This document shows positions 8,496 to 21,473 of a stretch of DNA of 64,000 nt, in pieces (within the stretch, counting starts at the first letter, position 1; every line of letters begins with the position of its first letter). The stretch is taken from NCBI GenBank assembly GCA_019744775.1, contig JAIETZ010000004.1, forward strand, positions 558,001-622,000. The letters are read 5' to 3'. The notes beneath the pieces were generated by a model. That model saw only the letters and a program-made list of their open reading frames with translations. It was not told where the DNA came from and made no database searches. Source of the DNA: Candidatus Obscuribacterales bacterium (GTDB lineage: Bacteria > Cyanobacteriota > Vampirovibrionia > Obscuribacterales > Obscuribacteraceae). Position numbers and translations under genes: made by a program.

Positions 8496-8888
8496 TCAAG
8501 GCAGCGTCTTCATAGCAACCTCTTTCTCCTTAAGACTGACGGAAGCCTTGGAAAAAGGTTCCTCATAGCCATATTTAAAAGCGTTGCCCACGCCATGGAC
8601 TGTGCCAAGAATGCTGCCACTTACCAGCCCATAAGGCACAGTCATGAAATAAATCAACAATCGCGTTTGCGAAATAACAGGGTCTTGAAAAACCTCGAAA
8701 TCAGATTCGAGCGTACCTGTCATGCGTTTTGTTTCCGAGAAAATATCACGAGCAATTTTAATGGGGACTCCGACAGTGACACCATATGCAACACCAGCCA
8801 CTCCCAAAACTTTCGGCTTAGCAAATGATGCCTGGGGAAGCAAAAATGCAATCAACAACAAAGCGGCAACAACTGCTTTATTTTCCAA
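8496..8888 (-). CDS. Small secreted protein coupled to the hydroxyacid oxidase
   Basis: A 130-residue protein with a signal peptide (VVAALLLIAFLLPQASFA, cleavage before KP). Two Gly-rich hydrophobic stretches (VLGVAGVAYGVTVGVPI and YFMTVPYGLVSGSILGTVHG) could associate with membrane. Longer N-terminal readings run into the oxidase gene and are not real. The start is TTG at 8888, six bases after a perfect AAGGAGG. It overlaps the last codons of the oxidase gene by 11 bp, so the two are translationally coupled. Function is unknown. Similar short 'exported, GSxLG' proteins occur in envelope contexts, but I cannot name a family. Confidence 0.7.
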   Translation of the reverse strand: MENKAVVAALLLIAFLLPQASFAKPKVLGVAGVAYGVTVGVPIKIARDIFSETKRMTGTLESDFEVFQDPVISQTRLLIYFMTVPYGLVSGSILGTVHGVGNAFKYGYEEPFSKASVSLKEKEVAMKTLP

Positions 8889-9984
8889 GGGAAACCTCCT
8901 TAACAGCAACTCTTTCACCAATAAGATCAAGACTAATTTCATTGACCGAGGCACAGCCGCATAAGGCCATTGCCTGATCAATTTCTGCACGCAAAATATC
9001 CAGCACTTGCGCCACACCATCACCGCCGCCATTGACCAATCCCCAGAGTATAGGACGGCCTACCAAAACTGCTTTGGCACCCAATGCGATTGCTTTCACG
9101 ACATCTGTGCCTCGTCTGATACCGCCATCCACCAAAAGTTCAGCGCGACCATCGACAGCTTCAGCAACTTCTTGCAAAACTTCTATTGTTGCAGGAGCAG
9201 TGTCGAGCTGGCGACCGCCGTGGTTGGAGACAACTATTCCTGAAACACCACTTTCCACAGCGGCCTTAGCATCATCACCTCTGACAATTCCCTTAAGCAA
9301 GATAGGCAATTTGGTAATTGATTTTAGCCACTCAATGTCTTTCCAACTAACACTGGGATCAAACAAAGCTGAGGCATAAGTTGTGAGCCCCGATTGATCA
9401 GCTGGTTTGGGCATGGAAGCGAATTCACTTGTACCGAAATTGCCCATCTGCAAACCCTTGGGCAAGGCAAATCGATTGCGCACATCTCGTTCGCGCCTGC
9501 CGGAAACAGGCAAATCAACTGTGACAACAAGCGCGGCACAACCGGCTTTTTCAGCTCGTTCAACTAGAGACTTTGTCACTGAGCGATCTTTGTAGATATA
9601 GAGTTGAAACCAAACTGGACCGGATGCCGCCTGCATAATCTGTTCAATAGAAAAATTAGAGAGAGTGGAGGCAATCATGATGGTACCGGCGCCACCGACT
9701 GCCCTGACTGTTGCCAATTCACCTTCCGGATGAGCCATTGCCTGGAAAGCCATGGGAGCGACAATAACAGGCATAGACAGGGTGTGTCCTAATACTTTGG
9801 TCGAAAGGTAGCGCTCGCTTACATCGACAAGAACTCTATAACGCAAGCAAATTTTGTCGTAGGCAGCGCGATTTTCGCGCAGAGTAATCTCATCGTGAGC
9901 GCCGCTTGAATAATAGTCCCAAACAGGTGTCGGCAGCTTTTTGTGCGCCTTCTCTTCAAAGTCAAATAGGTTAATTAAATGCAT
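8878..9984 (-). CDS. FMN-dependent alpha-hydroxy-acid oxidase/dehydrogenase
   Basis: A 368-residue TIM-barrel flavoprotein of the L-lactate/glycolate oxidase family (PF01070), oxidising L-2-hydroxy acids to 2-oxo acids. Signatures are WFQLYIYKDR, VVTVDLPVSGRRERD, the active-site SNHGGRQLD (His base and Arg), LLVDGGIRRGTDV and LVGRPILWG. The start at 9984 (MHLINLFDFEEKA) gives the family-typical N-terminus; frames extending to 10185 are spurious. No ribosome site precedes it, and a TATACT box ends only about 10 bases upstream, so the mRNA may be nearly leaderless. It is divergent from the ring-opening operon. Lactate versus glycolate specificity cannot be told by eye. Confidence 0.9.
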   Translation of the reverse strand: MHLINLFDFEEKAHKKLPTPVWDYYSSGAHDEITLRENRAAYDKICLRYRVLVDVSERYLSTKVLGHTLSMPVIVAPMAFQAMAHPEGELATVRAVGGAGTIMIASTLSNFSIEQIMQAASGPVWFQLYIYKDRSVTKSLVERAEKAGCAALVVTVDLPVSGRRERDVRNRFALPKGLQMGNFGTSEFASMPKPADQSGLTTYASALFDPSVSWKDIEWLKSITKLPILLKGIVRGDDAKAAVESGVSGIVVSNHGGRQLDTAPATIEVLQEVAEAVDGRAELLVDGGIRRGTDVVKAIALGAKAVLVGRPILWGLVNGGGDGVAQVLDILRAEIDQAMALCGCASVNEISLDLIGERVAVKEVSLGK

Positions 9985-10035: not shown

Positions 10036-10064
10036 TTGATAGCTAGGGACTTCTCTTTTATATT
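10036..10064 (+). promoter_or_regulatory. Sigma70-type promoter of the 10-18.6 kb operon
   Basis: TTGATA (10036-10041) and TATATT (10059-10064) with an ideal 17-base spacer. The start site should be near 10071, giving a leader of about 67 bases before the ATG at 10138. No other strong promoter was noticed before 18647. Confidence 0.7.
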
Positions 10065-10137: not shown

Positions 10138-11928
10138 ATGTCCAACCCCCTTACCGGTGCTCACATAGAAGCGCACGATCGCCAAGCTTCTAAACTTAAC
10201 AACGACGAAACGTCGAAAAAAATGGGTCTTGAGGTAATCGGCTCAACGGCCAACGCGTTTGTCGGCGCGCTAGTTGACTCTGCCTTACAGACTCCTGTTA
10301 ACGGACTTATTCAACTTTTCAACCCACAAGAAGCCCATGCAGTGAAGCTTGTGGAGAACAAACAACAAGCCCTGGGAAGCGCCGAATGGTACGGTCAACT
10401 TGTCGGTTCCGGCGCCGGCTCGCTCTTAAACTTCGTCGGTTTGAGCAAACTATTAAAAGGCTCAAGCGAATCCATAAAATTCCTTGGAGCGCCTGCAACC
10501 AGCAAATTCTGGCGACCATTAGCCAATACTGTTTCACTTGTCGAAAAATCTCCATTTGCCCAAAAGCCCTTGCTTACGGCAGCAACTACTGGTGCCTTTT
10601 ATGGTGGCATTCTGACACCGGTTGATCCGCAGGGTGAAAACATGGTTGCGGCTAGATTGAAAAATGCGGGTGTAGGCGCCGCTTCTGTTGCAGCGATGAT
10701 CCTGCCCAACCAGATTAGATTGAGCACCAATGCAATAAAAGCCGGTGATGCAGGAAGCAAGGTCCATGAAGCTATTGCGCTGGCCATGGGCGGACCTCTG
10801 GCTGGGCTTGTACACGCACAAGGTCGCGCGCTTTGCGAGGGCAAATTTGCGCCTGATATGAATAGTCGAGAATTCAAAGAGTCCGTTGTTGGCTACAGCA
10901 TTCTTGGTGCAGGTTATGCAGGCTACCGAAGCACAGGCAGAGCTGCAAAAGCGCCTGAAGTCGAAGAGTACGAATCAGCAGACAAACTTAGAGCGACACG
11001 CCGTCCGGAAAGAACCAATCCGCCTAAAACACGTGACGAACATGCAGCAATGGTTCGTGAGTGGAAACAATTCGTTGAACTTTGTGATAAGACGGTGAGC
11101 ACCGATATCGATAATTCACCTATTACCGATCTTTCCAAGATTGATTTGAAGGTGCAGCATCAACGAGGACTGAAGCAGCTAGAATCCGATCCGGCTAATA
11201 TTCACAATGTCGATTCCTACCAAAAGCATTTTGACTACATGTACAAGCTGCTTAGCAAGGCTATACGTCATGACAAAGAGCTCGTTGCCGCAGCAAACGA
11301 AGCAACACAAAGAGCAATTGACGAATGGAATGCCGCGCATCCGGACTTGCCGGCGCAGCCAGGCGATTTAGTTATTCCAAACTCAACCTATCAACCTCAG
11401 TTTCCAGCGACGTTTGAACAAGTGCAGCAAAAGGCAACTACTCCGGCAATAAGCGATCAATGGAATCCATTTGAGAGTCAACTGCCTGCTCCTACATACG
11501 ATGGGCAATCAATGAATGTGCAACAAACAAAGCCGATTACAGAGCCATTGGCTACAGATTTGGTACCAAAAGCCACCGGACTGACAAATTCCCAGCTTGG
11601 ACGGAAAGCATTCAACATGAATCAGTCCATGGCTCAAGCGAAGCGTGCCAATGTAAACACACCAGCAAGTATGCAGGGCAAGCAAAAAGATCTAGCCGAA
11701 ACCATGCACTCAAAGAAAAACTCTGACGATCCAAACAAAGTGCGTGGTTTAAGCTTTAGAAACACAACTTTCGAGAAAAAAGGCTATACTGCCGAACAAA
11801 CCAATAAGAAAGCTATGGTCAACGGCATAACCGGAGCAAGCAAACATACCTCAGAAGGTATAGGCAGCGCGGAAGAACTTCATCAAAAGAGCAAGTTTAA
11901 GCAATGGAACGGCAAGGAAGAACCATAA
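10138..11928 (+). CDS. Large protein of unknown function, first gene of the operon
   Basis: A 596-residue protein without a recognised domain. Residues about 28-260 are rich in Gly, Ala and Ser with alternating hydrophobic helices (AFVGALVDSALQTPVNGLIQ; GSGAGSLLNFVGLSKLL; AMGGPLAGLVHAQG), suggesting membrane association or a glycine-zipper bundle. The middle is charged and helical (RRPERTNPPKTRDEH...), and the last 200 residues are Gln/Asn/Pro-rich and probably disordered. There is no signal peptide. The ATG at 10138 follows AAGGA. An upstream in-frame ATG at 9979 would run through the promoter and overlap the oxidase start, so it is rejected. It precedes the reductase gene by 19 bases. Confidence 0.7.
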   Translation: MSNPLTGAHIEAHDRQASKLNNDETSKKMGLEVIGSTANAFVGALVDSALQTPVNGLIQLFNPQEAHAVKLVENKQQALGSAEWYGQLVGSGAGSLLNFVGLSKLLKGSSESIKFLGAPATSKFWRPLANTVSLVEKSPFAQKPLLTAATTGAFYGGILTPVDPQGENMVAARLKNAGVGAASVAAMILPNQIRLSTNAIKAGDAGSKVHEAIALAMGGPLAGLVHAQGRALCEGKFAPDMNSREFKESVVGYSILGAGYAGYRSTGRAAKAPEVEEYESADKLRATRRPERTNPPKTRDEHAAMVREWKQFVELCDKTVSTDIDNSPITDLSKIDLKVQHQRGLKQLESDPANIHNVDSYQKHFDYMYKLLSKAIRHDKELVAAANEATQRAIDEWNAAHPDLPAQPGDLVIPNSTYQPQFPATFEQVQQKATTPAISDQWNPFESQLPAPTYDGQSMNVQQTKPITEPLATDLVPKATGLTNSQLGRKAFNMNQSMAQAKRANVNTPASMQGKQKDLAETMHSKKNSDDPNKVRGLSFRNTTFEKKGYTAEQTNKKAMVNGITGASKHTSEGIGSAEELHQKSKFKQWNGKEEP

Positions 11929-11947
11929 CCTCTAGACAAGGCGCAAC

Positions 11948-12898
11948 GTGCTAAAAAATTTGGTAATTGGTGCAGGCAGCATGGGTCTCATACTGCAGTA
12001 TCTGATTCAAGAATCAGAAGAATCCCACTTACTGGCGCGCGATTCATCCTGCGCAGCTTTGCTGGACAAACCACTTGAAGTAACAGGTGCTGTCGAAGGC
12101 AGTCTAAACATCCAGTGTTATTCATGGTCAAAATTTCCCCAACTTTCTGACGACGCAGCGATATTTGTTGCCACCAAAGCGCATGAAATACCTGTGGTTT
12201 TGCAAAACTTGGCACCACATATAAAATCATCCAACAAAATAGTTTTGATGCAAAATGGATTAGGCATTTACGAAATGGCCAAACAAATTTTGCCGGACAA
12301 TTCTCTTTTTAGACTGCTTTGTTATATTGGCGTCCGCAAAGTTTCACCTTGTCACATTCACGTTGCCGGAATTCACAAGTATGAGTTTGCCGGCGAGCAG
12401 GTTCACGCAGATTTCTTGAACAAATGGCAAAAGGTACTGCTCGATAAAGGCATCGATACCACGGTCAATTTCAATCCACTGAAATCAGAATGGCAAAAGG
12501 CATTGTGGAATTTATCCATCAATGGACTGTGCTCGATTGTCGACGAACCAAATGGCGCAATTGCCGACAGTCCGGAATTGAACAATTTGGCTCGGCAAGT
12601 CGTATTAGAAGCCGTGGAAATTGCCCAACTGGAAGGAATTCACCTGACAACCGAGCATTTAGAGGATGTATTTAAATCTCTTGAAAGGACACGAGAAAAC
12701 ATCAATGCTACACTCCAAGATCTGAGGGCAGGACGCCACCCCGAGCTGGAATTTCTCAATGGGGCCGTTGCCAAAATTGCTGCCAAGCACGGGCGCCGCG
12801 CGCCACTCAACGAAGCAATTTTCAACCTGGTGACCTTCCTGGAAAAGGCAGAAAAGCGTAAGGAGATTGAAGATGGTCGAAGTGGCACCAAAGGCTGA
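11948..12898 (+). CDS. 2-dehydropantoate 2-reductase (ketopantoate reductase) family
   Basis: A 316-residue NADPH-dependent reductase of the PanE/ApbA family. The Rossmann motif GAGSMG is at residues 8-13, followed by VATKAHEIPVVLQNLAP and MQNGLG. The catalytic lysine is probably in KSEWQKALWNLSING, and the C-terminal helical domain has the family's ELEFLNGAVAKIAAKHG ending. The start is GTG at 11948. It may make D-pantoate for coenzyme A. In this operon it could instead reduce a 2-oxo or semialdehyde intermediate, as other beta-hydroxyacid dehydrogenases do. It overlaps the next gene by 26 bp. I leave panE unassigned because of the context. Confidence 0.85.
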   Translation: MLKNLVIGAGSMGLILQYLIQESEESHLLARDSSCAALLDKPLEVTGAVEGSLNIQCYSWSKFPQLSDDAAIFVATKAHEIPVVLQNLAPHIKSSNKIVLMQNGLGIYEMAKQILPDNSLFRLLCYIGVRKVSPCHIHVAGIHKYEFAGEQVHADFLNKWQKVLLDKGIDTTVNFNPLKSEWQKALWNLSINGLCSIVDEPNGAIADSPELNNLARQVVLEAVEIAQLEGIHLTTEHLEDVFKSLERTRENINATLQDLRAGRHPELEFLNGAVAKIAAKHGRRAPLNEAIFNLVTFLEKAEKRKEIEDGRSGTKG

Positions 12899-13451
12899 TG
12901 TTATTGAAGTACCGATCATTCAAGCGACACCGGAAAATACTAAGGACTTTGGTCTTTTCATAGGCACTGAAGTACCGAATGCCGGTCTGACTATCCCCTT
13001 CTACAAGGGTTCTGTCGAAGAGGGTTTCAATATCCCATTTGAATGTCAAGGGAGCGCTGTCATCCGCACGGCACGTATAAGCAAGCGCTCAGGCGATGTA
13101 ATTTGGCTCGAGCGTCATGTGGAAATGACTCAGCTTTTTATTGGTTTAGGTGATCAACCTTTTGCTATGGTGCTTGGCAAACCCAACCACGAACAGAAGG
13201 GTGAAGTACCGGAACTGAAAGAAGTGAAGTGTTTTGTTTTTCCAGCAGGTCACGGCATCATGCTCTGGAAAGGCACATGGCACGATTTCCCGCTCTGCGT
13301 AAAAGAACCTGTTACTTGCATGACGGCCAATTCGCCTGCCGTTGTTGAAGCTCTAGCTTCAATGAAGACAGCGTCGGAAATGAATCACGGCGATGTGTAC
13401 AAGATTGATATTAAGGCTCGCACTGGTAAAACTCTGCACGTAAGTTTGTAA
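12873..13451 (+). CDS. Ureidoglycolate lyase-like (AllA family) protein
   Basis: A 192-residue beta-rich cupin-like protein with the AllA-family features ERHVEMTQLFIGLG, FAMVLG, and FVFPAGHGIMLWKGTWHDFPL near the C-terminus. Ureidoglycolate lyase (PF04115) splits ureidoglycolate into glyoxylate and urea in allantoin breakdown, and relatives act on similar ureido acids. The ATG at 12873 is seven bases after AAGGAG; an in-frame TTG at 12867 is less likely. No allantoinase or allantoate hydrolase gene is nearby, so the substrate may instead be a ureido acid produced downstream of the ring-opening amidohydrolase encoded next. Confidence 0.75.
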   Translation: MVEVAPKADVIEVPIIQATPENTKDFGLFIGTEVPNAGLTIPFYKGSVEEGFNIPFECQGSAVIRTARISKRSGDVIWLERHVEMTQLFIGLGDQPFAMVLGKPNHEQKGEVPELKEVKCFVFPAGHGIMLWKGTWHDFPLCVKEPVTCMTANSPAVVEALASMKTASEMNHGDVYKIDIKARTGKTLHVSL

Positions 13452-13472
13452 ACTGAAAGCGAAGGTTTTGTC

Positions 13473-14570
13473 ATGCAAGTCAAAGCAATAAAGATTGCAA
13501 CCAGCAATCCTGCCGATGTAAGCCAACTTACAAAGTACATGGATGACGGGACAATTAATCCCGCCGATGTAATTTGCATCATCGGTAAGACCGAAGGCAA
13601 CGGTGGTCGCAATGACTTCACCCGCGACTTAGCAATGTCGGCGTTTGAATCATTGTTTTCAGCAAGACTGGGCATTTCTCGGCAAGAAGTTGTCGACCGT
13701 ATAATCTTTTCGCTTTCAGGCGGCTGCGAGGGTGTTGTTAGTCCGCACATTGTTGTATTTTGCAAATCCGGGGAAACATTGAAGGACAAGCGTACAGAAA
13801 AACGCTTGGCTGTCGGAATTGGTTTTACGCGTGCTTTTGCGCCCAATGAAATTGGCCGTATGGCACAAGTCGAAGAAACCGCACGTGTGATAATGCAAAT
13901 CGTCAGTGATTTGAAAGTCGAATCCAATAGTGACGTGCATCTCATTCAAATGAAAGGCGCTATTCCTAAATTCACTTACGAGGAAGAACTAGACGCAGCT
14001 AAAGCCGGCAAACCAATCCGTTCGGACATGGTCTTTTCTCGCGGGGCTTCGGCGCTGGGAGCAGCACTTGCCCTCGGCGAAGTGAAACCAACGGAATTAA
14101 ATGACGATGTCATTTGCAATGACTGGAATCTATATTCGACCACGGCTTCATGCTCGGCTAAACCTGGACTTGAACGTACGGAGATTATGGTTTTGGCCAA
14201 CAGTCCCTATTGGGATGGCGATCTTATGATCGAGCACGGCATTTTGAAAGACATGCTCGATACAAAATCGGTAATTGATGTTTTAGCAAAACTAAAAATA
14301 GACTGCAATCTGCAACTCACACCAAAACAAGCTGAAAAAATTGTTGGCGTGTTTGCCAAATCAGAAGCAGATCCACGCGGCACCATTCACGGCAGACGCG
14401 CGACAATGCTAACCGATGATGACATAAGCGACACCAGATATTCTCGCTGCGTATTGGGTGCTGTTTTGTCCAGTGTCCTTTACGATCCGACTGTATACAT
14501 AAGCACGCGTGCCGAACATCACGGTCCATGCGGCGGCGGAACATTGGCAATAATCGCTAAACAAGAGTAA
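13473..14570 (+). CDS. Ring-opening amidohydrolase (cyanuric acid amidohydrolase/barbiturase family)
   Basis: A 365-residue protein of the AtzD/TrzD/barbiturase family (PF09663), which hydrolyses cyclic imides such as cyanuric acid or barbituric acid. Family members are threefold internal repeats, each giving a Lys-Ser pair. All three are visible: K39 (IIGKTEGNG) with S82 (SLSGGCEGVVSPH), K161 (IQMKGAI) with S226 (TTASCSAKPG), and K296 (FAKSEAD) with S344 (VYISTRAEHHGPCGGG). The metal-binding Glu/Gly loop at the C-terminus is also present. Third-repeat residues after the serine are TR, where I recall GG in cyanuric acid enzymes. Barbiturase, or a new ring substrate, is therefore as likely as cyanuric acid. 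It lies 21 bases after the AllA-like gene. Confidence 0.88.
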   Translation: MQVKAIKIATSNPADVSQLTKYMDDGTINPADVICIIGKTEGNGGRNDFTRDLAMSAFESLFSARLGISRQEVVDRIIFSLSGGCEGVVSPHIVVFCKSGETLKDKRTEKRLAVGIGFTRAFAPNEIGRMAQVEETARVIMQIVSDLKVESNSDVHLIQMKGAIPKFTYEEELDAAKAGKPIRSDMVFSRGASALGAALALGEVKPTELNDDVICNDWNLYSTTASCSAKPGLERTEIMVLANSPYWDGDLMIEHGILKDMLDTKSVIDVLAKLKIDCNLQLTPKQAEKIVGVFAKSEADPRGTIHGRRATMLTDDDISDTRYSRCVLGAVLSSVLYDPTVYISTRAEHHGPCGGGTLAIIAKQE

Positions 14571-14576
14571 AAATCT

Positions 14577-17183
14577 ATGACAATGCAATTGAACAAAGCG
14601 CACGTTAAGTCTGAGACAAAAACATCTACAGTCAAATTATCCAACGGTGCCGAACTCTTCATGGCTGAAAGTGGGCAAGGAGATGAGCTGGTTGTTTTCT
14701 TGCATGCAGTAGGCGGAGATAGCAGATCTTGGGCAACACAAATGTCGTCCCTTGCATCGCTTGGCTATAAGTGCCTCGCTGTTGATTTCCGTGGTCACGG
14801 AAAATCAAAGTTTCCCGGTCAAGACACCTACAAGGAAGTTACCGTAAAGTCCTTTGCTCAAGATGTTATTGCTCTTATTGAACAATTGGGATATGCGAAG
14901 GCACACTTCGTTGGATTATCAATGGGTGGCGTTGTTGCCTTAAATGTCTTCCAAGAGAAAAAAGCTATAGTTCAATCTTTGACATTGGCCAATACCTGGT
15001 CATTCAATCCGCAGGCATCCGACAAAGTTGCCTTCATGAAAGATCGCTTGTCGAAAATGAGTCTCAAAGAAAGCGCGGCTGAACTTATACCGGCACTTTT
15101 TGCCAAAGGCACAGACAAAGAAATAGTTGCGCAAGCAGTGGAAATTGAGGGCACAAAAGACAAGGATGTCTTTCTCGCCTCCTGGATTTCAATGTTTGCC
15201 GATGACTACAGGGACGTTGTATCAAATATTGATGTCCCCGTTTTATTAATTGGTGGCAGTGAAGATCAAATAACACCAACAGATCCTCTCTTGACCGAAA
15301 TCCACAGATTATTGCCGGCGTCTCAGCTTGTGAATATTGAGGGAGCCGGACATTTTTCCAATCTCGATAAACCCAATGAATTTGAGAGCCTTTTGTCTGC
15401 CCACCTGAGACGTGCACGCATGTCACAGCGCCAACAAATAAGTCCTTTGAAGACACAAAAGATAGAAGCTGGTACGGTTGCCCACGCACTGATGGGACTT
15501 TTGAATAAGCGCGGCATCAGATATTTCTTTTCCAATTCGGGCACGGACTTTACACCAATCATTGACGCCCTTGCTTGCTACAGCGACGACCCGGATTTCG
15601 AATTAGAGGAAATAGTTGCACCGCACGAAAATACCGCCATTGCCATGGCACACGGATATTTTCTTCTCTCAGGCAAACCTCAAGCAGTGATGGCACACGT
15701 CAATGTCGGTACAGCGAACATGGGATTGGGAATTATCAATGCCAATAGAAGCCATATTCCCATGCTTGTCCTGGCAGGTAAGAGCCCCTGGTATGAACAG
15801 CCTTCAAACGGCGTCCAAGAAATAGAAGGATGTCGCACTAATTTTGTGCAATGGGGTCAGGATACTTTTGACCAAGCAGCCTACTTCCGTGAATTCACCA
15901 AATGGGACTACGAACTGAAAGGTTCTTTCAATCTAGAATCTGTTGTCGATAGAGCGCTTGCTATAAGCAAGAGTCAGCCGGCCGGTCCTGTTTATTTGAC
16001 ATTGCCCAAAGAAGCACTTTGTGAGCAGATCGAATCATTCACCTATTCAGAAACACCACGTCAAAGCCCTGCTGCTGCCAGCGCACCTGTGCAAAGTGCA
16101 ATCGATGCTGCCGCCAAAGCAATCGCTTCAGCCAAGAAACCTCTTATCGTCACTGCCGAACTGGGTCGCTATCAAGGTGGTGTGGAAGCACTTTCGAATC
16201 TGGCTATGAAACTAGGAATTGGCGTTGTTGAGTTCGGCAAGCACAACTTCTTCAACTTACCCACGGATCATCCCATGCATCTGGGATTCGATCCTGCACC
16301 TTATATTGCAGAAGCTGATTTAATTATTTGTATCGAAAGTCATGTTCCCTGGATTCCGGCCATCACCAAGGTGAAGGAGCCTCTCGAAAGAGGCAAACCA
16401 ATAATCCAAATTGGCGTCGATCCTTTAGCCGGCAAGCTACCAATGCGCAGCTTCCCTGCAGATATTTGCTTAGCAGGCAATCCAACTGAGACCTTAAGGC
16501 GAATTTGCGAAGCATTGGACGCACGCCAGGACAAGTCACGTTTTGCCGCCATTGAATCCGAACACAAGAAAGTATTTGAGACAGCGAAGAAAGAAGCGGC
16601 GAAAGATGCCTCTTTGCCAAAAATCAGTAAGCGCTATATCTCATACTGCTTAGGAGAAATTGCTGACGACAAGACTGTAATTTTCAACGAGTACAACTTG
16701 GAACCAACACTGGTACCTAGACACCTATCCGACAGTTGGTTCGAGAATTCAATCGCCAGCGGACTTGGCTGGTCGTTGGGAGCTGCGCTTGGAGCTCAAT
16801 TGGCAGCGCCTGATCTGACGATGGTAGCCACACTAGGCGACGGCAGCTACTTATTCAACACACCGCTTTCAGCGCACTATGTGGCAGCAGCTTACAAGTT
16901 GCCCATTGTTATAGTCGTGTTTAACGACAGCGCCTGGTCCACAATTAAAAAGTCCTATTTAGGGACAACCAAAAATGGCTGGGCTGAGAAGAAAAACAGC
17001 TTCGCTTTATGCAACCTGGAAGTAGACATCTCATTTGAGAAATTAGCCGAAGCTACAGGCGGTATTGGGCTTACTGTCGACAAGCCGGCTGAATTACCTG
17101 CTACTCTGAGAAAAGCAATAGATATTTCGCGTAAAGATCGCAAGCACGTACTGGTAAATGTAGTCTGTGAAAGAGATACGTAA
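14577..17183 (+). CDS. Alpha/beta-hydrolase fused to a ThDP-dependent enzyme
   Basis: An 868-residue bifunctional protein. Residues 1-285 are an alpha/beta-hydrolase with nucleophile S115 (GLSMGG), acid D230 (GGSEDQITP) and H259 (GAGHFSN). Residues about 296-868 are a full acetolactate synthase-type thiamine diphosphate enzyme: catalytic Glu E351 (APHENTAIAMAHGY), central domain, then the ThDP/Mg motif GDGS (754-757) with its Asn near 783 (VVFNDSAW). Such enzymes decarboxylate or ligate 2-oxo acids, for example glyoxylate carboligase or benzoylformate decarboxylase. The frame is continuous across the junction near base 15440, with no frameshift. It starts six bases after the amidohydrolase stop. 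It could hydrolyse an ester or amide product and pass on a 2-oxo acid. Confidence 0.88.
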   Translation: MTMQLNKAHVKSETKTSTVKLSNGAELFMAESGQGDELVVFLHAVGGDSRSWATQMSSLASLGYKCLAVDFRGHGKSKFPGQDTYKEVTVKSFAQDVIALIEQLGYAKAHFVGLSMGGVVALNVFQEKKAIVQSLTLANTWSFNPQASDKVAFMKDRLSKMSLKESAAELIPALFAKGTDKEIVAQAVEIEGTKDKDVFLASWISMFADDYRDVVSNIDVPVLLIGGSEDQITPTDPLLTEIHRLLPASQLVNIEGAGHFSNLDKPNEFESLLSAHLRRARMSQRQQISPLKTQKIEAGTVAHALMGLLNKRGIRYFFSNSGTDFTPIIDALACYSDDPDFELEEIVAPHENTAIAMAHGYFLLSGKPQAVMAHVNVGTANMGLGIINANRSHIPMLVLAGKSPWYEQPSNGVQEIEGCRTNFVQWGQDTFDQAAYFREFTKWDYELKGSFNLESVVDRALAISKSQPAGPVYLTLPKEALCEQIESFTYSETPRQSPAAASAPVQSAIDAAAKAIASAKKPLIVTAELGRYQGGVEALSNLAMKLGIGVVEFGKHNFFNLPTDHPMHLGFDPAPYIAEADLIICIESHVPWIPAITKVKEPLERGKPIIQIGVDPLAGKLPMRSFPADICLAGNPTETLRRICEALDARQDKSRFAAIESEHKKVFETAKKEAAKDASLPKISKRYISYCLGEIADDKTVIFNEYNLEPTLVPRHLSDSWFENSIASGLGWSLGAALGAQLAAPDLTMVATLGDGSYLFNTPLSAHYVAAAYKLPIVIVVFNDSAWSTIKKSYLGTTKNGWAEKKNSFALCNLEVDISFEKLAEATGGIGLTVDKPAELPATLRKAIDISRKDRKHVLVNVVCERDT

Positions 17184-17197
17184 AATCGCAAGCTAAC

Positions 17198-17911
17198 ATG
17201 ACGAAATCAGACAACAAAAAAAATCTCAAGTACGTCGAAGCTTTTTACGGAGCCAACGGGCAATCTTACGGCGAACCAGCCGACTACACATGGCACCAGT
17301 TTATTCTCACCAAGGAACTTCAAGATAAAGAAGATAGCCTCGGGAAAGAGCACCCGGAGTTATCCGACACCCTGCACAAATTGGCATTAACCTATTTTGC
17401 CCAAGGTGAATTTGGACAGGCAGAAGATCACTGGCAGCGCGCTCACAAACTGCAAGAGACCAATTCAGCCAAAGACGATCCCCTGCTATTGGAGACTAAA
17501 AGATGTCTGGCAATTCTCATTTACTTCCCACTTAAGAAAGATGGGGAAGCCGAGATGATGCTCAAGGAAATTGGCGAGCGTAACAAGATATTTCTGGCAG
17601 AGACATTAAATGACCTGTCGGCTATTTATGTCCAACAGAAGGAATTCGCCAAAGCGGTCAAATTTTATGGTCAGGCGCTGGAAATATGGCAAACCGAGCT
17701 GGGAGCTGAACATATCGCCATACCGGATATGCTCGACAACCTGGCGTCCCTGCATTATCACCAGGGCGACCTGGCTCAGGCGCAAAGCTTATCCAAAAAA
17801 GCTCTTGACCTGGCTCAAAAAGTTCTTGGCGCCGATCACCCCGGAACCACTAAAATAAACAGTAACTATGCGATTATGAATAAGACCGGATTCGCTGGAG
17901 GGACAAATTAA
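17198..17911 (+). CDS. TPR (kinesin-light-chain type) protein
   Basis: A 237-residue protein made mainly of tetratricopeptide repeats of the kinesin-light-chain pattern. Units begin near HPELSDTLHKLALTYFAQGE, LAETLNDLSAIYVQQKE and IPDMLDNLASLHYHQGD. The N-terminus is polar, with no signal peptide. TPRs mediate protein contacts, and none of the residues suggest catalysis. It follows the fusion gene by 14 bases and precedes the methyltransferase by one base, so it belongs to the same operon. Its partner is unknown. Confidence 0.75.
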   Translation: MTKSDNKKNLKYVEAFYGANGQSYGEPADYTWHQFILTKELQDKEDSLGKEHPELSDTLHKLALTYFAQGEFGQAEDHWQRAHKLQETNSAKDDPLLLETKRCLAILIYFPLKKDGEAEMMLKEIGERNKIFLAETLNDLSAIYVQQKEFAKAVKFYGQALEIWQTELGAEHIAIPDMLDNLASLHYHQGDLAQAQSLSKKALDLAQKVLGADHPGTTKINSNYAIMNKTGFAGGTN

Positions 17912-17912
17912 T

Positions 17913-18647
17913 ATGCTCGGATGCTTGTCTAGAATAGCCTTATCAGTAGTTTTGCTTACTCAACTGCTGGGCTCTCAGTCGCTGGCTGCCGACAAAACAA
18001 AGCCCCTAGCCAATCGTGCACCGGTAGAGACAGCTAAGGACGATGCCGCTGCTGAGAAAGAGTGGAATAAGTGGCTGGAAACCTTTGAAAATACAACCCG
18101 GGAAATCTATAACCAGCGCGTTAATATCATCAAGGCGCTTCAGCTAAAACCTGGAATGAGTGTTGGCGACATTGGTTCTGGAACAGGCTTTTACACATTT
18201 TTGATCGCCAAAGAAGTAGCTCCCAATGGACGGGTTTATGCCGTAGACATTAACAAAGCCTTTCTCAAGCACATAGACGAAAAAGCACAGGCTCAGGGCA
18301 TGAAAGAAATGCGCACAGTGCTTTGTACTAAGAAGTCGGTAAATCTCCCAGCTAACTCAATTGATTTAGCATTCGTTTGTGATACCTATCATTACCTCGA
18401 ATATCCAAGTCACACGCTCATTTCCATCAACAAAGCTTTGCGTAAAGATGGCAAATTGGTCGTCATCGATCTCGATCGTAGACCGGACAAAAGTTCTGAA
18501 TGGGTGATGAAAAATGTACGAACCGGCAAAAAAGAGTTTATCGCGGAGATAGAAGCAGCCGGCTTTCGTAAGGTCAAAGAAGAAGACTTCTTGAAAGAGA
18601 ACTTCATGGCCACATTCGTTAAAGACCCAACAAAGAAAAAGAAGTAA
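17913..18647 (+). CDS. Exported SAM-dependent methyltransferase-like protein
   Basis: A 244-residue protein with an apparent signal peptide (IALSVVLLTQLLGSQSLA, cleavage before AD). A class I methyltransferase domain follows: SAM-binding VGDIGSGTGFYTFLIAKE (about residues 88-105), VYAVDINKAFLKHI, then the motif IDLAFVCDTYHYLEY. The C-terminus has KLVVIDLDRRPDKSSEW. Exported methyltransferase domains are odd because SAM is cytosolic; it may be membrane-anchored facing inward, or a non-enzymatic fold. It is the last gene of the operon and converges on the YdeP-like gene four bases away. Substrate is unknown. Confidence 0.75.
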   Translation: MLGCLSRIALSVVLLTQLLGSQSLAADKTKPLANRAPVETAKDDAAAEKEWNKWLETFENTTREIYNQRVNIIKALQLKPGMSVGDIGSGTGFYTFLIAKEVAPNGRVYAVDINKAFLKHIDEKAQAQGMKEMRTVLCTKKSVNLPANSIDLAFVCDTYHYLEYPSHTLISINKALRKDGKLVVIDLDRRPDKSSEWVMKNVRTGKKEFIAEIEAAGFRKVKEEDFLKENFMATFVKDPTKKKK

Positions 18648-18651
18648 ATCT

Positions 18652-20841
18652 CTAAACGACTATTCGTACAGGAGCACTCTTGAAGTTGGGTGTTCGTGAT
18701 CGCTTGTCGATATTAGCCTTGATGAGAACATTTGCTTCAGGATAGAACATGGCAACAGTGCCTGATCTTATTTGTCCAACAACTACTTCGATGTTGTCCA
18801 TTTCACCAGCCTCGCCTACGACTTTTATACGCTGGCCATCTTCAATATTTAGTTTCTCTGCGTCTTCTTTCGACATCAATATGCAATAACGGTGCGGCAT
18901 ACCGCGGTAGATATCGTACTCTTCGTAGACAACCGTATTGAACTGTCCTTCGGACCGTAAGGTGATAAGACGAAATTCGTCTTTGCCTTTTACTTTCGGC
19001 AAAGGAGTTTCATGCATAATTGCCTTACCATTTACCGTGTTGAACTGTGGTGTGTGAAAGAGTCTACCAGCGACAGTGAATTCTTTCTTTGTTGAATCCA
19101 TCGTGGCAATTTCTTGCCAGCCTGGAACAACTTCGGCAATCAACTTTCTAATTTCGCTATGCGAGACAAAGCGCGACCAATCAACGGGATGTTTGTCCAA
19201 TACACGGCTTGCCAGATCGCAGATTACTTGCGATTCGGCGCGCATCATGCCTTTTACATTCGGCTGTCCACCCTCGGACATGCGAACATAATTGAACATT
19301 GATTCTTGGGTTGTCGGTTGCGGTTCTTCATCGCGAGCCAACACAGGTAGAATTAGTGTTGTCTTGCCGCGTCCATGAAAGTGACCTGGATTCAACTTAG
19401 TTGAAAGATAAACAGTCGTGCCAATGTTCTGCATGGACTTAGTCGCCCAAGAAAGATTCGGATTTGATCCCCACAAATTACCGCCCAGGCAAATCAAAGT
19501 GGAAAGCTCTCCACGCTCAGCGGCTTCAATCATGCCATGAGTGTCATAGCCCACCGAATCAGGTGTCTTCATATTGTAGGCACGTTCCAACGCCTGCCGC
19601 ATGCCTTCTTGCAGACCCGGTGTAAATCCAACTGAACCGACACCTTGCACATTTGAATGTCCGCGCAAAGGCAAAAGTCCGGCACCAGGGCGACCAACTT
19701 GTCCACATGCCAAAGCCAAATTACACAGAGCAAGAACATTATCCACGCCTGATTCGTGATGCGTTAGTCCCATTGCCCAGGCAAACATGGCTGATTTTGC
19801 TTGCGACAGCATTGAAGCGGTCTTTTCAATATATCTCTTTTCCACACCACTGCCATCAACAATTTCTTGCCAGGTCGTTGCGCGCGCCTGATTGAGAACA
19901 GTTTCAGATCCTTGTGTGTATTCGGCAAGATATTCTCTATTTACACAACCGCTTTCATCCAATGCCTTTAGAACACCGACCAGATAATGCACATCGCCAC
20001 CGGCGTGTGGTTGAACATACAGACTGGCAATTTCTGAACCCAATAGAAATGATCGTACTTGCGAAGGGACATGGAATTTCTTGAGTCCTGTTTCGACAAT
20101 GGGATTCACAACAACAATATGACCGCCGCGCTTACGCAAGTCCGACAATTGCGTCATGATACGCGGATGGTTGGAAGCTGGGTTGGAGCCGATAATCATA
20201 ATGAAGTCAGCTTTGCTCACATCATCGAGACTAACTGTGGCCGTGCCTGTTCCAAAAGACATCTTTAATGCCACGCCGGAGGCTTGATGACAATAGAAAG
20301 AACAGTTCATTACGTGGTTGGTACCATAAGCACGCGCGAATGATTGCAAAAGGAAAGCTGCTTCGTTAGATGATCTGCCTGAGGCATAAAATGCTGTTTC
20401 GTTCGGCTTACTTTGTTTCAATGCTTGAGCAGCAATAGACATTGCCGTATCCCAATGCACCGGTTTGAAATGAGTAGCGCCTGGCTCAAGCAAAACAGGA
20501 TAAATTAAACGTCCGGCATCCTCTGCTTGTTTGGGCGTGAGATTTTCCAGGTAGTGAATATCGTGTTTGTCAAAATAATCGGCATCAATTGCACCGATCA
20601 TATCTGCGGCTTGCGCCTGCAGGCTCTTCTTGCAGACTTCAGGAAAATGTCCAGACTCATTTACCATACCGCCAAGTTGTCCGCCCATACCGACAGCACA
20701 AGTCTTACACGCATTGCGTGAGGTCATGCGTTTCCAGAGACGCCAGGGTCCAACTTGAATGGCTTTTTCGATACTGTATGCGACTGCCTGCCAGCCACCG
20801 CCGGCTTTTATCTTGCGAGGAGTCTTAACTACTTGAGTCAT
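18652..20841 (-). CDS. YdeP/FdhF-like molybdopterin oxidoreductase
   Basis: A 729-residue molybdopterin-guanine-dinucleotide enzyme of the formate dehydrogenase-like FdhF/YdeP group. The N-terminus has NACKTCAVGMGGQLGGM and a third Cys in EVCKKS. The molybdopterin regions include CSFYCHQASGVAL, SNPASNHPRIM and LPLRGHSNVQGVGSVG; the C-terminal domain IKVVGEAGEMDNIEVVVGQI binds cofactor. YdeP proteins lack a selenocysteine or typical formate active site and have an unclear, acid-resistance-linked role. The ATG at 20841 overlaps the upstream stop (TAATG); the TTG at 20868 is not needed. No FdhD or molybdenum-cofactor gene is in the window. Confidence 0.85.
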   Translation of the reverse strand: MTQVVKTPRKIKAGGGWQAVAYSIEKAIQVGPWRLWKRMTSRNACKTCAVGMGGQLGGMVNESGHFPEVCKKSLQAQAADMIGAIDADYFDKHDIHYLENLTPKQAEDAGRLIYPVLLEPGATHFKPVHWDTAMSIAAQALKQSKPNETAFYASGRSSNEAAFLLQSFARAYGTNHVMNCSFYCHQASGVALKMSFGTGTATVSLDDVSKADFIMIIGSNPASNHPRIMTQLSDLRKRGGHIVVVNPIVETGLKKFHVPSQVRSFLLGSEIASLYVQPHAGGDVHYLVGVLKALDESGCVNREYLAEYTQGSETVLNQARATTWQEIVDGSGVEKRYIEKTASMLSQAKSAMFAWAMGLTHHESGVDNVLALCNLALACGQVGRPGAGLLPLRGHSNVQGVGSVGFTPGLQEGMRQALERAYNMKTPDSVGYDTHGMIEAAERGELSTLICLGGNLWGSNPNLSWATKSMQNIGTTVYLSTKLNPGHFHGRGKTTLILPVLARDEEPQPTTQESMFNYVRMSEGGQPNVKGMMRAESQVICDLASRVLDKHPVDWSRFVSHSEIRKLIAEVVPGWQEIATMDSTKKEFTVAGRLFHTPQFNTVNGKAIMHETPLPKVKGKDEFRLITLRSEGQFNTVVYEEYDIYRGMPHRYCILMSKEDAEKLNIEDGQRIKVVGEAGEMDNIEVVVGQIRSGTVAMFYPEANVLIKANIDKRSRTPNFKSAPVRIVV

Positions 20842-21473
20842 TAGCTTTTTTGGTTGGCCAAACGCCAAGCGTCCTTTTGAAGTTCTTTCAATTTCTTCAA
20901 ATCATCATAGATTGGCAAAAGCTGCTTGCCGATATCCAAATTTACGTAGGTCGGTCCTTGAGTAACTGGAATTAATTTTTGATAGTGCGCGGTAATGTCA
21001 TTGCTAAGCGCTTTCATTTGGCGCCACTTCGGGGCAAGCAAAGTCTTTTTGTCAGCGGGAATTTGCGTCGCATCAATCTCAGCGGCCAACATAGGCACAA
21101 CTTGACTGAATTGCCACATGTACAACTTAACCCATTTTGCACGCGGCGGCAAAAGCGGACCAACATTCATACCACCAGTCGGCATTGGTATGGCAGGCAC
21201 CACAATCGGACCAATAACATCAGGCTCTGCAACGGTTACATATTGCTGGCGTTCTATTTCGTTGATCATGTCGGTTGTTACACGATTCAATTCGTTGGTT
21301 ACCTGATGCATGGCATGCAAGGCTGTCGAAACCGTCAAGGTAGAAGTCGCAACTTGTCCTGATAAAGCCGGCTTCGAACTGACCGCCTTTTGAGTCTTGC
21401 TAGGGACATCTGCGGCAAAAGCACTTGTCTGTGCCAATAGTAAAGCTGCCAATGCAACGCGAAACTTAGTCAT
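20841..21473 (-). CDS. Secreted protein, paralogue of the gene at 3808
   Basis: A 210-residue protein with a signal peptide (VALAALLLAQTSAFA, before AD), a Ser/Thr/Lys-rich linker, and a helical domain. It shares the motif LPPRAKWVKLYMWQFSQVVPML and a GPTYVN...LLPIYDDLKKLKELQ tail with the 3808-4572 product. The stop codon overlaps the YdeP-like ATG (TAATG), a strong sign of translational coupling, so it may assist or precede export or folding in the same process. The ribosome site is AAGAGGT. There are no cysteines and no metal motifs, so it is probably a structural or binding protein. The family is unnamed. Confidence 0.7.
   Translation of the reverse strand: MTKFRVALAALLLAQTSAFAADVPSKTQKAVSSKPALSGQVATSTLTVSTALHAMHQVTNELNRVTTDMINEIERQQYVTVAEPDVIGPIVVPAIPMPTGGMNVGPLLPPRAKWVKLYMWQFSQVVPMLAAEIDATQIPADKKTLLAPKWRQMKALSNDITAHYQKLIPVTQGPTYVNLDIGKQLLPIYDDLKKLKELQKDAWRLANQKS

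Follow-up and report, generated by a model that had tools for sequence, protein, structure and literature searches.

A window of 64,000 nucleotides from the soil or freshwater organism Candidatus Obscuribacterales bacterium (contig JAIETZ010000004.1; the window is the whole stretch of DNA analysed) carries a conserved catabolic cassette, the core of which is a gene for a lyase resembling the ureidoglycolate lyase AllA, directly followed by a gene for a ring-opening amidohydrolase of the AtzD/Bar family (Toblerone fold) belonging to Group IV of that family. We tentatively regard it as possible that lyase and ring opener work one after the other on a cyclic ureide derived from purines, at the level of xanthine or urate, and thus serve a nitrogen-scavenging route independent of uricase. 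That the cassette recurs in several phyla and includes an orphan class of enzyme is more than a reading of this one sequence could have known.

Conservation of the core gene pair

A preliminary description of this DNA, made from the sequence alone, had proposed an undescribed cluster that unites an AtzD-family ring opener with an AllA-like lyase, a thiamine diphosphate (ThDP) enzyme and a PanE-like reductase, and had offered conserved co-occurrence as its own test. The comparative data support the cluster, and the co-occurrence is borne out. Among 53 genomes surveyed across the order, the AllA-like gene is present in eight, a fusion of an alpha/beta-hydrolase with a ThDP-dependent enzyme in those very eight, and the AtzD gene in the eight and one more. 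With the genomes taken as independent, such nesting would arise by chance with a probability of about 1e-8 to 1e-9, a figure that shared ancestry inflates. The carriers belong to several genera, with non-carriers in between; cluster-bearing relatives of the window genome are recorded as Obscuribacterales or Melainabacteria. Gene order in the fetched regions is (PanE)-AllA-AtzD-hydrolase/ThDP, the PanE-like gene being part of the cluster at loci L037, L038, L040, L045 and L070 and lying beside the AllA-like gene in L042 and L043. An exception is genome G323, where a Group IV AtzD with the motif STRAEHHGP (L075, 9156-10256) adjoins a putative secreted protein of 319 residues, and where AllA-like and ThDP genes were not found within about 9 kb.

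The same association extends well beyond the order. An alignment of the AllA-like protein, run against 84,980 bacterial and archaeal genomes, returned 36 loci from Obscuribacterales, Myxococcota, Acidithiobacillus and Sulfobacillus-type organisms. The AtzD gene lies directly downstream of the lyase gene in 34 of them, with a gap of -4 to 39 bp where both gene ends were resolved. Two settings, mutually exclusive among the 36 loci, surround the pair: a ThDP type (17 loci, from Obscuribacterales, Nannocystis and other Myxococcota, and metagenome-assembled genomes (MAGs) labelled Blastocatellia and others) and a molybdoenzyme type, with an enzyme of the xanthine dehydrogenase family (14 loci, from Acidithiobacillus, Sulfobacillus and Bacillota MAGs). 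The remaining five loci have neither enzyme, two of these being short contigs. One myxococcal MAG (L042), with PanE-like and gamma-glutamyltransferase genes divergent to the lyase/AtzD pair, combines features of both kinds. A viral scan based on the lyase gave no match, and plasmid matches to the ThDP enzyme were to the general family only, the fusion being absent.

Two observations concern the records themselves. MAG records titled Chloroflexi, Blastocatellia and Proteobacteria (L037, L038 and L040) carry the cluster, and L037 is the same contig stretch as genome G342, which is placed in the window's genus, so the titles of such records are unreliable. In Nannocystis exedens (L047, 13187-18424) an open hydrolase-ThDP frame runs over 1745 codons, some 900 residues free of Pfam matches preceding the hydrolase domain; the gene may encode a more extensive fusion, or the long frame may be an artefact of GC-rich DNA.

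A ring opener with the Group IV signature

Membership of the ring opener in the AtzD/Bar family is plain: PF09663 covers its full length, Lys42, Lys162 and Lys296, Ser85, Ser233 and Ser344 and the three substrate arginines are all kept, and its AlphaFold model (mean predicted local distance difference test score, pLDDT, 89) superposes on cyanuric acid hydrolases with a template modelling (TM) score of about 0.9. These features it has in common with AtzD/TrzD and Bar, but it differs from them at the specificity pair, which is Gly-Gly in cyanuric acid hydrolases and Val-Ser/Ala in barbiturase (PMC3758960), and Thr-Arg in the window protein. In the Moorella enzyme the segment that holds the specificity residues contributes to the substrate-binding strand and to the metal loop (PMC6557486). 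Residues 195, 321, 325, 345 and 346 of the window enzyme are Arg, Thr, Arg, Thr and Arg, which departs both from the cyanuric acid hydrolase set (Arg195, Thr321, Arg325, Gly345, Gly346) and from the barbiturase set (Asn195, His321, Lys325, Val345, Ser/Ala346), and agrees with Group IV (Arg195, Met/Thr321, Arg325, Thr345, Arg346), as do all 35 linked ring openers. Thr345-Arg346 occurs in every one of these, in both cluster types, and in none of the cyanuric acid hydrolases compared. The 35 sequences form a single clade with Acidithiobacillus and Sulfobacillus (support 100/100). Given the shared signature and the single clade, the substrate is therefore probably the same in both cluster types.

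Group IV was delineated by Peat 2013 from Acidithiobacillus and Sulfobacillus only, as unlike either known activity, and no function was assigned (PMC3758960). The literature searched likewise yielded no function for it. Class IV proteins reportedly could not be expressed in later work (Peat 2017) and were hence left unassayed.

The preliminary description had assumed cyanurate or barbiturate chemistry, and the specificity residues fit neither; we rejected both identities on this signature and retain them as rivals. For the first, the ring opener would be an ordinary cyanuric acid hydrolase and the cluster would scavenge s-triazine nitrogen. The protein is about 45% identical to solved cyanuric acid hydrolases, it keeps the catalytic Ser/Lys residues and three arginines, and it passes the NCBIfam equivalog NF052395, cyanuric acid amidohydrolase (383.8 bits against a cut-off of 360; the A. 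caldus copy scores 372.3). The specificity pair is nonetheless the Thr-Arg of Group IV and not Gly-Gly; this model does not separate Group IV, and its name should not be taken as a function. The replacement of Gly345-Gly346 in all 35 linked copies, the separation of Group IV from the cyanurate groups on that pair by Peat 2013 (PMC3758960), the purine-serving genes upstream in the Acidithiobacillus type and the lack of a recognisable biuret or allophanate hydrolase in the window cluster and annotated loci (host genomes were not searched for these) make cyanurate a very unlikely substrate.

Rings besides cyanurate and barbiturate are already suspected for the Toblerone fold, because a PDB structure with that fold, 5hy0, bears the title 'orotic acid hydrolase'. 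The pair might accordingly handle carboxylated rings, orotate-like or hydantoin-carboxylate, bound by Arg346 and not specifically derived from purines. Such a substrate might suit the positive residues that Group IV gains in the alignment, Arg346 with Arg183 and Lys230 (the latter two in window numbering), but 5hy0 is only about 30% identical, and the clusters lack nearby pyrimidine genes. We consider this reading unlikely.

Other AtzD-family loci were met along the way. Genome G005, of the same phylum, has tandem AtzD-family genes (L033, 2806-5360), in the first of which catalytic residues are substituted (Lys42 to Gln, Ser85 to Ile), the second resembling a normal cyanuric acid hydrolase. 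Klebsiella and Aminobacter plasmids (L009 and L014) carry a cyanurate-type AtzD with FdrA, a DUF1116 protein and carbamate kinase, which suggests that on conjugative plasmids ring opening is linked to the chemistry of transcarbamylases; the L014 protein has the Gly-Gly signature and the L009 copy gives the same 45.7% match. An AtzD-family gene is found on many clinical Enterobacteriaceae plasmids, and the copy at L010, with a cyanuric acid hydrolase signature, adjoins a nucleobase:cation symporter.

The AllA-like lyase

The lyase shares with AllA a superfamily (PF04115), a predicted fold and the motifs LERH...Q and WH. Its AlphaFold model (pLDDT 89.5) finds its nearest solved folds in the AllA structures 2bdr, 1xsr and 1yqc. 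It differs in having only 15-19% identity to these, WHDFP in place of AllA's WHHP, and no allantoin-pathway partners. Against the NCBIfam ureidoglycolate lyase equivalogs it reaches 29.4 bits at best, with a cut-off of 230, and by this measure it is a member of the superfamily and not an AllA orthologue. AllA-type chemistry, in which a ureido group is released from a carbon that turns carbonyl, is plausible for it. The literature search gave no paper naming the AllA-like and AtzD families together.

For known routes of ureide and urate breakdown we examined 13 host genomes (seven Obscuribacterales, two Nannocystis, three of the Acidithiobacillus type and one Sulfobacillus), in which the controls rang. 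Allantoinase (TIGR03178) was above its cut-off in none of the 13, and with the low equivalog score of the lyase this led us to reject a canonical AllA/allantoin pathway; the recombined allantoin-glyoxylate route of the preliminary description is not supported either. Uricase (PF01014), 2-oxo-4-hydroxy-4-carboxy-5-ureidoimidazoline decarboxylase (PF09349) and 5-hydroxyisourate hydrolase (PF00576) were also found in 0 of 13, and therefore urate made in these organisms would be without a known exit; the flavin adenine dinucleotide (FAD)-type urate hydroxylase HpxO was not searched for, which tells against the uricase-independent reading.

Distant relatives of the lyase gene (about 34%) lie on two Novosphingobium plasmids (L011 and L012) beside other enzymes, with no AtzD. 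That of L011 adjoins an FAD-linked oxidase, a methyltransferase and a luciferase-like monooxygenase, and perhaps represents another ureide pathway.

Purine setting and a proposed route

Directly upstream of the core, Acidithiobacillus-type loci hold genes for a nucleobase permease, a guanine-deaminase-like protein, an adenosine deaminase and xanthine-dehydrogenase-like subunits. At L053, of the molybdoenzyme type, the permease is of the Transp_cyt_pur family and the adenosine deaminase exceeds its cut-off; the guanine-deaminase-like protein stays below its own, and so does the molybdoenzyme, for which NCBI models of xanthine dehydrogenases (PucD/XdhA nearest) score best. The L053 core is followed by XdhC, AtzG, AtzE, HpxZ, a gamma-glutamyltransferase and a LysR regulator. 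AtzE and HpxZ exceed the NCBI cut-offs beside AtzD in L053 and L013; this hpx/atz module is absent from the window's cluster. In Bacillota loci the core is followed by a fumarylacetoacetate-hydrolase-family protein and a different amidase. By their gene content, the molybdoenzyme-type loci are purine clusters.

The preliminary description had drawn an analogy with oxidative pyrimidine degradation, and the informative context proves to be purine degradation instead. Were the ring opener a barbiturase, a molybdoenzyme would oxidise uracil to barbiturate and later enzymes would cleave ureidomalonate; uracil/thymine oxidation to barbiturate followed by Bar hydrolysis is an established pathway (PMC3758960), and Thr345 is near in shape to the Val of barbiturase. 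The Asn195, His321 and Lys325 of barbiturase are Arg, Thr/Met and Arg here, however, the deaminases encoded nearby are those of adenosine and guanine, purine-type models come closest to the molybdoenzyme, and the AllA-like protein would be left without a role, so that a barbiturase strikes us as decidedly unlikely.

The Acidithiobacillus type resembles the atzDGEHF operon of Pseudomonas sp. ADP and hpxWXYZ of Klebsiella in combining AtzD, AtzG, AtzE, HpxZ and a gamma-glutamyltransferase. It differs in that no AtzF was seen, in the addition of the AllA-like lyase and of purine-to-urate genes, and in having a Group IV AtzD. HpxZ and AtzH belong to one family (DUF3225), and HpxY/HpxZ carry names referring to oxalurate. 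In the cyanurate pathway AtzE/AtzG and AtzH act on carboxybiuret and dicarboxyurea (PMC6219798). It is a reasonable inference that the AtzG/AtzE-HpxZ module dismantles an acylurea.

For the purine-derived ureide route we infer the substrate, the direction and the order of the steps as follows. The molybdoenzyme of the Acidithiobacillus type would convert xanthine to urate. The lyase would break the C-N bond between a carbon and a ureido nitrogen, as in AllA-type chemistry, the imidazole side being released hydrolytically to give 5-ureidobarbiturate (urate with its imidazole ring hydrolysed); alternatively, an alloxan-type ring and urea would arise, by way of an extra oxidation that the scheme leaves unexplained. 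The literature search on ureidobarbiturate and alloxan added nothing of use. The ring opener would then hydrolyse the imide of the barbiturate-like six-membered ring, as AtzD does, with Thr345 and Arg346 contacting a substituent at position 5 that cyanurate and barbiturate lack. In the Acidithiobacillus type, AtzG/AtzE, HpxZ and the gamma-glutamyltransferase-type amidase would dismantle the resulting acylurea, taking off its terminal nitrogen, decarboxylating it and hydrolysing the amide; the gene order there (xanthine dehydrogenase, lyase, ring opener, AtzGE, HpxZ, amidase) is that of the proposed steps. In the window type, cleavage of the acylurea would fall to the alpha/beta-hydrolase and conversion of a 2-oxo acid to the ThDP enzyme, a PanE-like reductase being often present, and because of that 2-oxo acid this module would fit the alloxan variant better than a purely hydrolytic one. 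The full scheme, in which the AllA-like enzyme opens the imidazole side of urate, Group IV opens the remaining pyrimidine ring and two interchangeable modules follow in different phyla, is rather doubtful as it stands.

As to the ThDP part of the fusion, its nearest solved structures are benzoylformate decarboxylases. Glyoxylate carboligases have the cofactor-activating Glu replaced by Val; the window enzyme retains Glu at PHENTAIAMAHGYF, and so lacks this mark of a glyoxylate carboligase.

Several points weigh against a purine route. The purine context is confined to the molybdoenzyme type, the window-type core being without adjoining purine genes, and no molybdoenzyme match was found in the window-type genomes G341 and G295 (89-90% complete). 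The solitary Group IV AtzD of G323 means that the lyase is not always needed, and the lyase is so remote from AllA that its chemistry could be another. A urate route of hydrolytic steps only would not yield the 2-oxo acid at which the ThDP enzyme hints. The PanE-like protein, which passes the ketopantoate reductase model, is the sole full-length PanE-family match in its genome and may simply serve coenzyme A synthesis. No activity is known for the enzymes of the cassette.

The isolation of the window-type loci, alone among unrelated genes and without transport or upstream purine genes, also agrees, together with the patchy distribution, with a cassette that deals with oxidised nucleobases by repair or detoxification (damage products of the alloxan or hydantoin type, for example) and is not a nutrient pathway. 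The Acidithiobacillus-type clusters, in contrast, have a permease, a regulator and downstream amidases like those of catabolic operons, and we think a detoxifying role improbable.

Two known routes invite comparison with the proposed purine route. The clostridial xanthine amidohydrolase route, from xanthine to 4-ureido-5-imidazolecarboxylate, has its gene unassigned (PMC3519856); it would also open the pyrimidine ring of the purine by hydrolysis but is clostridial and anaerobic, with no sequence link to the cassette shown. The reductive urate pathway of E. coli (XdhD, YgfK, SsnA, HyuA) is likewise uricase-independent (PMC12507026) but, as described, has no ring-cleavage enzyme of the AllA or AtzD family. 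Were the purine reading true, the oxidative, clostridial and reductive ways of opening the purine ring would be joined by a further one, used by acidophilic lithotrophs, by predatory myxobacteria and by Obscuribacterales; a function would be assigned to the orphan Group IV class, and the database name 'cyanuric acid amidohydrolase' would be corrected for these proteins. The fixed partner gene, the two alternative downstream modules and the purine setting give a short list of testable substrates for Group IV.

The window locus

The window's host genome comprises 4.1 Mb in 13 contigs. As described earlier, seven plus-strand open reading frames lie tightly packed at 10138-18647, spaced by 1-21 bp, with the PanE- and AllA-like genes overlapping by about 22 bp (Table 1). 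Pfam and NCBIfam agree with the family calls made from sequence (ApbA/PanE, PF04115, PF09663, Abhydrolase with TPP enzyme, tetratricopeptide repeat (TPR) and methyltransferase) and leave the first protein without a match. The tight packing of the 'seven-gene operon' thus stands, but a functional unit of seven does not, genes 1, 6 and 7 being common only to the same genus; the conserved unit has four genes, AllA-like, AtzD-family, hydrolase-ThDP and often PanE-like. The promoter placed at 10036-10064 provides no evidence, the stretch having 13 sigma-70-like sites against 15.5 +/- 3.7 in shuffles, and it was dropped as an argument for an operon.

Table 1. Genes and sites at the window locus
Feature	Position	Strand	Basis and remarks
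Unknown 596-residue protein, gene 1	10138..11928	+	No Pfam match; frame open from ATG 9979, start unsure; genus-specific passenger
PanE/ApbA-like NADPH (reduced nicotinamide adenine dinucleotide phosphate) reductase	11948..12898	+	TIGR00745, 189 bits against cut-off 141; frequent cluster member
AllA-like C-N lyase, PF04115 superfamily, core gene	12876..13451	+	Pfam 40.3 bits against 23; start GTG 12876 or TTG 12867
AtzD/Bar-family (Toblerone fold) ring-opening amidohydrolase, Group IV, core gene	13473..14570	+	PF09663, E 1e-123
Thr345-Arg346 codons, Group IV specificity signature	14505..14510	+	Alignment; signature from PMC3758960
Fusion of alpha/beta-hydrolase (N-terminal, about 290 residues) and ThDP-dependent enzyme (C-terminal, about 577 residues, NF006203/PRK08327-like)	14577..17183	+	NF006203, 585.7 bits against cut-off 456; core gene of window-type cluster
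TPR protein, genus-specific neighbour	17198..17911	+	Same position only in L037 (75%)
Methyltransferase with apparent signal peptide, genus-specific neighbour	17913..18647	+	Same position only in L037 (79%)
Flavin mononucleotide (FMN)-dependent alpha-hydroxyacid dehydrogenase/oxidase, divergent from operon, possible accessory	8878..9984	-	PF01070, E 2e-141

Homologues of gene 1 are confined to the same genus (34% in L037, a 96% fragment in L036), and its own genome has no paralogue. The FMN enzyme has a 61% homologue near the cluster in L070/L032, and the other loci are without one. Genes for FtsZ, MtnA-like, TPR and ADYC proteins, kinases and Cas proteins, found between or around the core in window-type loci, were set aside as unrelated. 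On the opposite strand, a molybdopterin oxidoreductase of the FdhF/YdeP type (18652-20868, minus strand) keeps its position within the genus (L037, 83%), and a nucleobase permease of the Xan_ur_permease family (PF00860; 21558-22970, minus strand) lies just past the operon.

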